DNA of 64,000 nucleotides, from contig DAHXLX010000002.1 of NCBI GenBank assembly GCA_027365775.1, positions 1 to 64,000 of the forward strand. The letters are read 5' to 3'. The DNA is from Candidatus Saccharimonadota bacterium. GTDB lineage: Bacteria; Patescibacteriota; Saccharimonadia; Saccharimonadales; UBA4665. Shown here piece by piece: positions 7,002-18,973 of this stretch; position 1 is the stretch's first letter; the number at the start of each line of letters is the position of its first letter. The notes under the pieces are model-generated. The model was not told the DNA's origin, did no database searches, and worked only from the letters and a program-made list of their open reading frames with translations. A program made the translations under genes and the position numbers.

Positions 7002-7123
7002 AATTCATAGGTTCCAATCCTGGTAGGAATGTTACAAACAAAACTGTTATACTTTAGAAGAGCATACCACTGGTTAATCTCTTCAAGAATATGGTTCCAA
7101 TTTGATAACAGGTGGTTCACCAT
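6998..7123 (-). repeat. Island repeat copy 1, micro-ORF MVNHLLSNWNHILEEINQWYALLKYNSFVCNIPTRIGTYEF*
   Basis: Manual minus-strand translation; member of the 13-copy family. Confidence 0.8.
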
Positions 7124-14897: not shown

Positions 14898-15313
14898 ATG
14901 CCACCGAAATTCTTTTTTATTACTCTTGGTGTAGATGACATTCAAAGAAGCTTATCTTTCTACAGAGATGGCTTAAGCTGGAAAACTGATGGGTTATAGG
15001 CCAAGAATTTCATGATGAAGTTACGGGTGCAGACGGTACAATAGCCTTTTTTACATTTGATAACGGTATTATTTTAGGCCTATATGAGCGTAGTAATCTT
15101 ACGAAAGATGCCCAAATTAAACAAGACAGCAGAAGTTCTACTGAGTTTAATATTGGTTATCCAGCAAAATCTAAAGAGGAAGTTGATAGTCTGTTAAAAA
15201 TAGCCGAAACTGCTGGCGCAGAACTTACAGCACCGCCCCATATGCGACCCTTTGGCGTTTATTCGGGCTATTTCAAAGACCCGGGACGGGCATTTATGGG
15301 AAGTAGCCCATAA
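14898..15313 (+). pseudogene. VOC/glyoxalase-family protein, frameshifted near 14985-15000
   Basis: MPPKFFFITLGVDDIQRSLSFYRDGLSWKTDG | IGQEFHDEVTGADGTIAFFTFDNGIILGLYERS...AHMRPFGVYSGYFKDPGRAF-type VOC order split across two frames. Confidence 0.7.
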
Positions 15314-15409
15314 TGAGCCTAAAGGATAATATTTCAATCCCAACAACTCATTCAATCTAATAATTTCATTAGCAATTTGCCTATAAACCGAGTGGTCCAG
15401 GGTCACCAA
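15194..15409 (-). repeat. Island repeat copy 9; track ORF MVTLDHSVYRQIANEIIRLNELLGLKYY..., 3' part antisense to the VOC gene
   Basis: N-terminal 23 aa match the micro-ORF family. Confidence 0.85.
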
Positions 15410-15410
15410 A

Positions 15411-15701
15411 TCAGTTTCTGTTTTCTCTGCTGTGCCAGACCCTGAGTATTACTACTGTATTTTCGTCCTCCAGCTTATATCTAATAACATAAGCTCCTGC
15501 CCCAAAAGCCATAAATAGTTCACGTCTGTTTCCATCATCTGGCATTGGACGACCAATTCTTGGCGTCAGTTTAAGTATTTCAGAACCGCTAAGGATGTTT
15601 GATGCAGCTCTTTTAGCAGCTTCGCTATCTTTATCCAATAAGAAGAAATAGAGCCGTTCAAAATCTTGTATGGCTTCTGGAAGCCATTTTATTCTTGCCA
15701 T
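15411..15701 (-). CDS. ParE/RelE-like toxin
   Basis: ARIKWLPEAIQDFERLYFFLLDKDSEAAKRAASNIL...IGRPMPDDGNRRELFMAFGAGAYVIRYKLE..VVILRVWHSRE. Confidence 0.85.
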   Translation of the reverse strand: MARIKWLPEAIQDFERLYFFLLDKDSEAAKRAASNILSGSEILKLTPRIGRPMPDDGNRRELFMAFGAGAYVIRYKLEDENTVVILRVWHSRENRN

Positions 15702-15958
15702 TTGCGTGGTTTACCCTGGCCTAAGTCTTTTAGCCAAGTCTCTACCTTTTCGTGCTCAATAGCTTTACCAGTTATAAGATACTGCTCCCACCTTGCATTA
15801 TCTTCGGCTTTTTCTTTTTCATATTGTTCTTCTCTCTCAAGATAGATTTCTATAGCAGTTCGCATAATCCAGTGAGGCGAGTGCTGTTTTTTCTTAGCCA
15901 AGACTTTTAGTCGTTCACGGGTGTTGTCGTCTAATTTTATACCTTGAGTAGTTGCCAT
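15689..15958 (-). CDS. RHH/CopG-like antitoxin
   Basis: TTQGIKLDDNTRERLKVLAKKKQHSPHWIMRTAIEIYLEREEQ ribbon-helix-helix; overlaps the toxin start. Confidence 0.85.
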   Translation of the reverse strand: MATTQGIKLDDNTRERLKVLAKKKQHSPHWIMRTAIEIYLEREEQYEKEKAEDNARWEQYLITGKAIEHEKVETWLKDLGQGKPRKWQE

Positions 15959-16226: not shown

Positions 16227-16607
16227 ATGCTAAATATCCAATCATCATTTAGCGGTTTTTCTGTAGACGATATTAGTAAGGCTAAAGAATTTTATGGAAA
16301 CGCATTAGGCTTTGAATTAGAGGATAAAGTTGGAGGAACGACTATACATCTACCTAACAAAGCTTCTGCCTGGATGTATCAAAAAAAGACCATAAACCTG
16401 CAGACTATACCATGCTTGACTTTGTAGTTAGTGATATAGATGAAGCTTATGAGACTCTCGTCAACAATGGGGGTAGAATTTATACATTATCCTGGTTTTC
16501 CCCAAGACGATAAAGGTATTATGCGAGGTAAAGAAAAAGATATGGGTCCAAATATCGCATGGTTCAAAGACCCAGCAGGCGATACGCTTGCTATTATTGA
16601 AAACTGA
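16227..16607 (+). pseudogene. VOC/glyoxalase-family protein with two apparent frameshifts
   Basis: SSFSGFSVDDISKAKEFYGNALGFELED... then ...YTMLDFVVSDIDEAYETLVNNGG and VEFIHYPGFPQDDKGIMRGKEKDMGPNIAWFKDPAGDTLAIIEN in other frames. Confidence 0.75.
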
Positions 16608-16729: not shown

Positions 16730-17035
16730 AATAGAATTTGAATGTCTGAATTTTTTCAATAACAACTTATTTATTAAAAACTACACATTTTATTAAGCTA
16801 TTAGAGAATTATTTAATAATTTATCTACTAAACCACTACCAAGGTATTCTCTAGCCATATCTACTTCACGAGCTAGTAGAACAATTGACTGGTAATAGTT
16901 CTTCCTAAATATATTAGGTGAGTGGCACCAGTTATTATGAATTTTCATTAAGTTTATATTAAAATTTAAGTACAGCTATTTGACTTTATTTCGGCAAAAA
17001 ATTAAAATTTATGTATAAATTAAGAGGGGGAAATT

Positions 17036-17242
17036 ATGAGTGTAGAAACTATTTCAAAAGAGCAAGAAGTAAGCGATAAAATATGTGAAGAAACAATAGC
17101 AAGGCTTGGAATAACTGTTTTTGAAAAGTTGGCTGAAGAGAGCAAAAACCAAACAGATTCAATTGAATCCACTACAACTCTTGAAATCAGGAATTCTCTG
17201 ACACGTCTTCCTGATGGGCAAACAGTGCCCGATGAGAGATAA
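17036..17242 (+). CDS. Putative RiPP (graspetide-like) precursor peptide, 68 aa
   Basis: Short ORF directly upstream of an ATP-grasp maturase-like gene; C-terminus STTTLEIRNSLTRLPDGQTVPDER is rich in Ser/Thr and Asp/Glu. Confidence 0.5.
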   Translation: MSVETISKEQEVSDKICEETIARLGITVFEKLAEESKNQTDSIESTTTLEIRNSLTRLPDGQTVPDER

Positions 17243-17272
17243 AATAAAACCTATTACTAAATGTTAATATAG

Positions 17273-18236
17273 ATGTCAGAAATTGGAGTATTTTCCACTA
17301 GTATTGATTATCCTACATACAGACCAGTAGTAGATAATCTTAACACTAGAGGGTATTCAACCTGGGTATATAATGCGGATAGAGTCGCAAGTGGTTCGGA
17401 TAGCCTAGACCTTCAAGTTAACGATAATGAAAACTTTAAAATTGTTTATAATGGCATAGTTCATCAGCCAGAACATATACGTTCTGCTTGGTATAGACAC
17501 CCATATTTATTAAATCTGCAAATTTCTGATAAAGCTAGAGAGCTTTGCTTAGAAAAAGAAATAGATTTACTTCAGGAATCGATTTGGTTACAAATTTCGG
17601 ATAAGTCTTGGTTGAATCATCCAAAAGTTATGGACAAGTGGCGAGCTAAACTAGCTCAGCTATCTTTGGCTAAAACAATAGGGTTTAATATACCTAGGAC
17701 TGTAGTAGCTAATAATTGGCAAACTATTGACGAATCTTTACCAGATGAAAACATTATAATTAAGATGCCTAAGGGGCTAAGTTATGAAAATAATAAAGCC
17801 AAGATTTTATATACCACTAGGCTTAATAAAAATCTAAGAGAAAGTTTATCTACTAACAATCCATTTCCTGGAATATATCAAGGAGTTCTTAGATAAAAAA
17901 CGTGAATGGCGTATAACAATAGTAGGCGATGATGTTTTTGAAGCAGCTATATATACGACAGGAGATGCTAAAGATGATTGGAGAAAGCATCAATTAACCG
18001 AGAGTGTGGCCTTTAAGAAAGAATCATTACAGCAAAGCGAAGTAAGTAAATGTTTAGCGTATCTAGGACATCTAGGTTTAAATTATGGAGCTTTCGATTT
18101 AGTAGAAAACTCTGAAGGAAAAGTTACTTTCCTTGAATGTAATACCAATGGCCAATATAGGTGGCTGGAAGATATTCTTGGGTTGCCCATTTCTAACGCT
18201 ATTGCCGACCAGCTTATCAAGATATATAAAAGATAA
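17273..18236 (+). pseudogene. MvdD/MvdC-like ATP-grasp ribosomal peptide maturase, split by a frameshift near 17885
   Basis: SAWYRHPYLLN..., SWLNHPKVMDKWRAKLAQLSLAKTIGFNIPRTVVANNW, then YQ|(E)FLDKKREWRITIVGDDVFEAAIYT...LGLNYGAFDLVENSEGKVTFLECNTNGQYRWLE in the next frame. Confidence 0.7.
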
Positions 18237-18713
18237 TTAGGGTAAATACTTATTTAAAGCCTTGACCATACTGTCCTGTTTTGGATTTAAGATTAGTTTA
18301 TTAAACGTATCACTATCTACAAAATATATACTTATATTTTCGCTGATTAGTTTTTGAGTTACACTTTCATAATCATCTTCGCTCAAGGGAACAACAGCCT
18401 CTTTGCTGACCATTTCATATTCATTTAATTCTTTCTGAGGGCTTTGACTAAATAGATTACCAGGCAGTAAATATAAAGTACCCCCTTTATCTCTTTTAAG
18501 GATTTCTTCTACGCTAGCACATATAACTACATAAGGATTTTTTGACCGCACATTCATTAATGTAGGAAAGCCTTTAGGCAACAAATACATTAATGCCAAC
18601 TTTTTATACTTGGTAGCGAAAACAAAATTTCCAATATATTTATCATGACTAATCGTTCGTTGTGGCTTAATTACTTTAAGATTTTTGATAGGTGAAGCAT
18701 GATACAATTTCAT
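18237..18713 (-). CDS. Hypothetical protein
   Basis: ORF starting MKLYHASPIKNLKVIKPQ. Confidence 0.5.
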   Translation of the reverse strand: MKLYHASPIKNLKVIKPQRTISHDKYIGNFVFATKYKKLALMYLLPKGFPTLMNVRSKNPYVVICASVEEILKRDKGGTLYLLPGNLFSQSPQKELNEYEMVSKEAVVPLSEDDYESVTQKLISENISIYFVDSDTFNKLILNPKQDSMVKALNKYLP

Positions 18714-18973
18714 GCAGTTTATTATTGCATATTTTATTGGAATCATTTTGGCTAAGATTAAGATAATGAATAATTTTTAAGATTAAACTGTACTTATAAA
18801 AGCCTCCAATACGGGCCTTCAACAAAGCAAGTGATGCCTAATCACCAAAATTACTGACGCTAGCGACGCTACTGACGTTAAAGAAGATAAAAGTTCATCT
18901 GTAAACGACGCTACGACAGTAACGACAGTAAAATGAGGAAACTATTTAATAAAAATTTAATGTTTTATTTCTT

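Follow-up and report, generated by a model that had tools for sequence, protein, structure and literature searches.

A candidate two-gene graspetide pathway with an interrupted ATP-grasp maturase in a Saccharibacteria genome

Genes and features of the locus

The window analyzed here is a 64,000-nucleotide stretch of DNA from a Candidatus Saccharimonadota bacterium (contig DAHXLX010000002.1, positions 1 to 64,000). Its plus strand carries a 68-aa ORF at positions 17036 to 17242, which we propose to encode a graspetide precursor and which is conserved at eight other loci. The ORF ends 30 nt before the ATG (position 17273) of the single ATP-grasp ligase gene of the locus. A preliminary description of this DNA had given the spacing and the peptide correctly; the MvdD-like ATP-grasp motifs that it quoted are likewise all present, though spread over two frames. 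A Shine-Dalgarno-like AAGAGGGGG (17022 to 17030, plus strand) lies ahead of the precursor ATG, and a purine-rich AGGAG or AGGGGG, matching the precursor ribosome-binding site, occupies the same place in six relatives. Farther 5', a promoter-like TTGACT-N17-TAAAAT (16980 to 17008, plus strand) was retrieved by a consensus scan whose matches overall did not exceed the shuffle expectation, such that a match of this kind can arise by chance; its TTGACT is kept at the same position in a related locus, L014. Within the peptide, the leader recognition segment comprises about residues 24 to 33 (LGITVFEKLA) and the core about residues 50 to 68 (EIRNSLTRLPDGQTVPDER). No known precursor model or family in Pfam or NCBIfam was matched.

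The ATP-grasp gene, a putative graspetide synthetase (maturase), is interrupted. An N-terminal fragment of 207 aa (17273 to 17896, plus strand) contains the pre-ATP-grasp and central parts and stops right after GIYQGVLR. The C-terminal fragment (17880 to 18236, plus strand; KEFLDKKREWRIT...ECNTNGQY) contains R213, DWR, D275, and ECN (L014 numbering). By comparison with the intact frame of relatives (L014, L015, L018, L019, L020, and L044), a net frameshift falls within positions 17870 to 17905 of the plus strand, in line with the broken gene implied by the preliminary description, which spoke of a repaired maturase. Owing to the break, the catalytic C-terminal part is missing from the first ORF. 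As sequenced, the window gene could not yield a full-length maturase, and if the sequence is correct, the pathway would be disabled at this step in the window genome.

On the minus strand, a convergent gene (YHASPIKNLK..., weakly DUF6886-like; 18237 to 18746) abuts the maturase, the two stop codons facing each other. Relatives, in which the ORF is 158 aa long, share a start that corresponds to position 18713.

Family assignment of the ATP-grasp enzyme

In profile searches, the N-terminal fragment matched the MvdC model (TIGR04185) at 3e-18, and the C-terminal fragment matched the SAV_5884 model (TIGR04187) at 7.5e-25 and MvdD at 6.8e-24, compared with 3e-4 for RimK. The intact L014 enzyme retrieved TIGR04187 at 5.8e-44, MvdC at 1.4e-42, and MvdD at 3.7e-39 versus RimK at 1.4e-8; for the L014 and L015 enzymes together, the three maturase models ranged from 4e-39 to 7e-48 and RimK from 1e-7 to 1e-8. 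All three models (MvdC, MvdD, and SAV_5884) were matched by every aligned member of the enzyme family (29/29), with scores that lie far under the equivalog cutoffs of the named models (e.g., 150 versus 350 bits). The maturase thus appears to be a divergent relative and not MvdC or MvdD proper.

The best sequence matches in the PDB were MdnB (2e-25), CdnC, AMdnB, MdnC, and PruB (PDB 9bou), and the DWR segment of MdnB, MdnC, and CdnC is also found in the maturase. For the L014 enzyme, an AlphaFold model derived from a 29-row alignment (pLDDT of 91.7) retrieved MdnC (5e-23), CdnC, AMdnB, MdnB, PruB, and PsnB before RimK (1.5e-14); only graspetide macrocyclases ranked ahead of RimK. The enzyme clade is monophyletic (support of 100/100). 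Taken together, profiles, PDB sequence matches, and fold place the enzyme in the graspetide synthetase subfamily of ATP-grasp proteins, distinct from RimK, and a ligase of the RimK, LysX, or glutathione synthetase type was rejected. A grouping with RimK or glutathione synthetase ligases, which would have spoken against the preliminary description, was therefore not observed, with the maturase models and macrocyclase folds far ahead.

Conservation of the pair and its interpretation

A genome scan retrieved the pair in L014, whose enzyme is 81% identical across the N part, and in L015 (66%; named Candidatus Saccharibacteria); the peptides at the same position there are 78% and 68% identical, respectively, to the window precursor. 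Because of this identity, and because the core is more conserved than the leader, the pairing lies far beyond chance. As the preliminary description had suggested looking for, the same precursor-maturase pair recurs in related genomes, namely, at eight further loci spread over two genera from a single Saccharibacteria family. Within the genus (19 genomes), the core-motif DNA gave eight matches, all directly upstream of the maturase clade (8/8), while a reversed control pattern gave none. The enzyme is present in 8 of these 19 genomes and the core motif in 6; across the order, the enzyme family was found in 28/393 genomes (20/317 of those of good quality).

A small conserved precursor thus adjoins the ligase, as expected for a graspetide. 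The leader helix reads TVFE[KR]L in this family, and the core S-x-T-x3-D-G-Q-T-[VI]-P-D-E is invariant across both genera: S54, T56, D60, G61, Q62, T63, P65, D66, and E67 are unchanged in all nine precursors despite many synonymous changes. In eight precursors of identical register, E50 and I51 beside these residues are likewise fixed while their codons vary. The conserved tail, whose absence from homologues would have counted against the preliminary description, includes three hydroxyl residues (S54, T56, and T63) and three carboxyl residues (D60, D66, and E67), which are candidate ring donors and acceptors, respectively. The Thr/Ser and Asp/Glu residues put forward there for these roles are upheld at these positions but not at Thr 46 to 48, which open the tail as it was quoted; these are lost in L019, L020, and L044 and were rejected as ring donors. 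When the window is compared with L014, the final 25 precursor codons show 12 synonymous and 2 nonsynonymous changes (dN/dS of about 0.03), compared with 0.31 for the precursor leader and 0.12 and 0.17 for the enzyme before and after the frame break, respectively. The core is thus under very strong purifying selection.

More distant relatives show how the precursor varies. The pair from the other genus of the family (G617, L065 6738 to 6947) keeps SLTRLADGQTIPDER, and at one further locus (G431, L066), from a different family within the order, a recognizable cousin reads VTLFEKLA...LTRVNGGGTVPDA. The L046 and L074 precursors share only the leader, T[VI]LEALA, and have different cores, so leaders are steadier than cores between enzyme subclades. 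This is consistent with the published pattern in which precursor leaders track enzyme phylogeny (PMC8939145).

On the basis of the pair and its co-conservation, the family and fold of the enzyme, and the selection on the tail, we consider it highly likely that the locus represents a two-gene graspetide pathway of Saccharibacteria, in which docking, chemistry, and the number and connectivity of rings are inferred. Profiles, PDB sequence matches, fold, and the conserved tail all support the earlier proposal of a graspetide locus in a CPR genome. The N-terminal helix of the precursor (T-V-F-E-K-L-A) would dock on the ATP-grasp enzyme, which with ATP would activate the side-chain carboxylates of D60, D66, and/or E67 in the C-terminal tail. 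Condensation of these with the S54, T56, and/or T63 hydroxyls would close two or three omega-ester rings, each with a loss of 18 Da; the invariant donors and acceptors would allow up to three ester rings within a 14-residue segment. Leader docking and ATP-driven carboxylate activation with hydroxyl capture presumably proceed as in MdnC, CdnC, and PsnB. The leader would then be cut off by an unlinked protease, since no GG site is conserved in the precursor family and no C39 peptidase exceeded the Pfam cutoff in the 19 genus genomes. A C39-type partner was rejected on the same grounds, and no dedicated leader peptidase was seen.

Other accounts of the pair agree less well with these data. The enzyme might alter the 68-aa peptide differently, by adding amino acids to its acidic C-terminus in RimK fashion or by tying it through an iso-peptide or amide bond to a second molecule, in which case no ring peptide would form. 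An ATP-grasp fold is common to both types of enzyme, the weak RimK match of the L014 enzyme (1.4e-8) points the same way, and the tails have an acidic end, a feature of the RimK substrate (PDER in eight of nine precursors; PDEC in L044). We nevertheless regard this account as improbable, as maturase models and macrocyclase structures all score far above RimK, the DWR segment of MdnB, MdnC, and CdnC is present, and tail ligation would have no need for three invariant hydroxyl and three invariant carboxyl residues. Even less credible is that the ORF encodes an unmodified small regulator or antitoxin placed beside the ATP-grasp gene by accident. Toxin-antitoxin genes do occur in the area (ParE and RHH, 15411 to 15958), but the strict pairing across two genera, a core that is conserved more than the leader, and the lack of a Pfam or NCBIfam match for the ORF argue strongly against this account.

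A further reading concerns the window copy alone and does not compete with the graspetide assignment of the family: the locus may be a decayed remnant, with a maturase that is a true pseudogene, a precursor soon to decay, and no product made. We give this an even chance. In addition to the frame break, related copies are damaged, with an in-frame stop in G617 (within about eight codons of the window break position) and a degraded fragment in L049, and the family is patchy among the genus genomes. Losses of the maturase thus seem to occur, each case being in a draft genome. Two nearby glyoxalase/VOC-like genes (14898 to 15330 and 16227 to 16607; named by eye, not by model) each shift reading frame and then return, which would fit decay of the region as well as poor sequence quality there. 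Arguing against decay, dN/dS is 0.06 to 0.17 in both enzyme halves, including the part past the break, and nonsynonymous changes relative to L014 are few in the core (2 versus 12 synonymous); a sequencing or assembly indel is also possible in this draft genome, which is 70% complete. Because purifying selection persists past the break and in the core, either the sequence is in error or any loss happened recently. The interruption of the G617 copy near the same place raised the idea of a programmed split of the maturase. This was rejected, as the lesions differ (an in-frame stop in G617, a frame break in the window) and the second half has no early restart codon that would give it its conserved strands; an accident is the more likely origin of the interruption.

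Relation to known graspetides and genomic context

The microviridin synthetases MdnC, MdnB, and AMdnB (TIGR04185/TIGR04184; PDB 5ig9, 5ig8, and 7m4s) resemble the present system in enzyme fold and profile and in a precursor whose leader helix precedes a C-terminal core with Thr/Ser and Asp/Glu. Unlike microviridin loci, which combine a TxKxPSD core with two ligases, the present loci have one enzyme and the core S-x-T-x3-DGQT-x-PDE; they also have no conserved Lys for a lactam, and the leader reads TVFEKLA instead of PFFARFL. PsnB (plesiocin), PruB, and SAV_5884-type (TIGR04187) enzymes are likewise single maturases with matching fold and profile, but their core motif is different, and no isoaspartyl methyltransferase gene was seen beside the pair. 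The graspetides characterized up to 2022 are protease inhibitors (PMC8939145).

Graspetide loci in candidate-phyla bacteria were described by Makarova et al. 2022 (branches 1 and 2; PMC8939145) and again by Carter et al. 2026 (groups 27 and 42; PMC13097080); they share with the present locus the host radiation and a small precursor with a single ATP-grasp enzyme. The expectation that RiPP pathways are rare in such genomes therefore holds as a matter of frequency (20/317 good-quality genomes of the order), but graspetides of CPR bacteria were already published. In a comparison by published signatures, the precursor family differs from those of Makarova et al.: the branch-1 core TxxxTx(6-10)Dx(1-4)D is absent from the core region (one chance match falls across the L062 leader), and the leader motif Phhx(1,2)h is absent, with T in place of P (TVFEKL). 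As the leader motif occurs in about half of known precursors, it is not strictly defining (PMC8939145). As reported for group 42 (PMC13097080), a DUF6624 gene neighbors relatives of the enzyme in further genomes from the order. DUF6624 genes adjoin other graspetide-type ligases of the order at L068 6548 to 7126, L070 4433 to 5047, and L074 5269 to 5757; such neighbors were reported for groups 18, 20, 23, and 42 (PMC13097080). The locus is very probably a real pathway for a peptide natural product whose class is already on record from such bacteria but whose peptide family is uncharacterized. This family falls outside the published leader and branch-1 core signatures and would extend candidate-phyla graspetides accordingly.

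Saccharibacteria live on other bacteria with about 0.7 to 1 Mb of DNA, and to our knowledge, only a few of their biosynthetic pathways have been described. With two genes and a near-invariant core of 14 residues recurring in several genomes, the present pathway is small enough for one-step expression in E. coli, and its product would be a tangible candidate for a molecule acting between episymbionts and their hosts or among episymbionts. Any role towards hosts or rivals is inferred, as are the maturation and export of the peptide. A more far-reaching proposal, which we hold to be unlikely, is that the new core and proline-less leader mark a graspetide family specific to Saccharibacteria. Under this proposal, the pair and the convergent gene would travel together as a mobile module of three genes, the convergent gene would protect the producer and persist alone once the pair is lost, and the peptide would serve in competition among episymbionts or against the host bacterium.

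The convergent gene is present at all pair loci with flank sequence (8/8) and occurs without the pair in G527, G578, G535, G508:C27, G402, and G407. In G578, the DNA match extends about 55 bases beyond this gene into sequence that elsewhere forms the ligase gene end, which looks like a deletion scar. Speculatively, the gene might be a protection gene retained once the pair is lost. Its fold model (pLDDT of 94.3) gave no PDB match at an E value of ≤0.001 and, in BFVD, matched only uncharacterized viral proteins. An ADP-ribosyltransferase identity was not supported, as the AcrIF11 model reached only an E value of 0.1 and fold searches gave no such match. A member of this family also adjoins a RimK-type ATP-grasp gene in G627 (L100 1459 to 2818), a second ATP-grasp association.

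Since the pair is patchy within the genus, it may be a mobile accessory gene set; its upstream neighbors include a DDE transposase (L020) and an integrase-core fragment (L014). Viral or phage carriage was rejected, as viral contigs contained neither the core motif nor a relative of the maturase. Further candidate precursors with different cores were observed in the order, upstream of related ligases at L046 1946 to 2110, L074 4901 to 5074, and L066 4177 to 4398 and also at L068 5319 to 5546 and L071 5165 to 5530; the leader T-[VIL]-[FL]-E-x-L-A is common to several of them.

Finally, the window contains about 13 dispersed repeats of 70 to 85 nt between positions 7052 and 19679 (12.6 kb), located between small accessory genes in the manner of cassette-array spacers. 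They had no Rfam match and do not resemble integron attC sites. Copies lie on the minus strand near 7123, 7913, 8572, 9969, 12155, 13140, 13586, 14788, 15409, 16070, 16729, 19078, and 19677, and most read, on that strand, as variants of a peptide of ~23 aa, MV[NT][HL]L..(Y/W)..I..EI.RWNE.L. Third codon positions vary most, in a test biased by the retrieval of copies through the peptide pattern. Intergenic copies also occur in further genomes from the genus.
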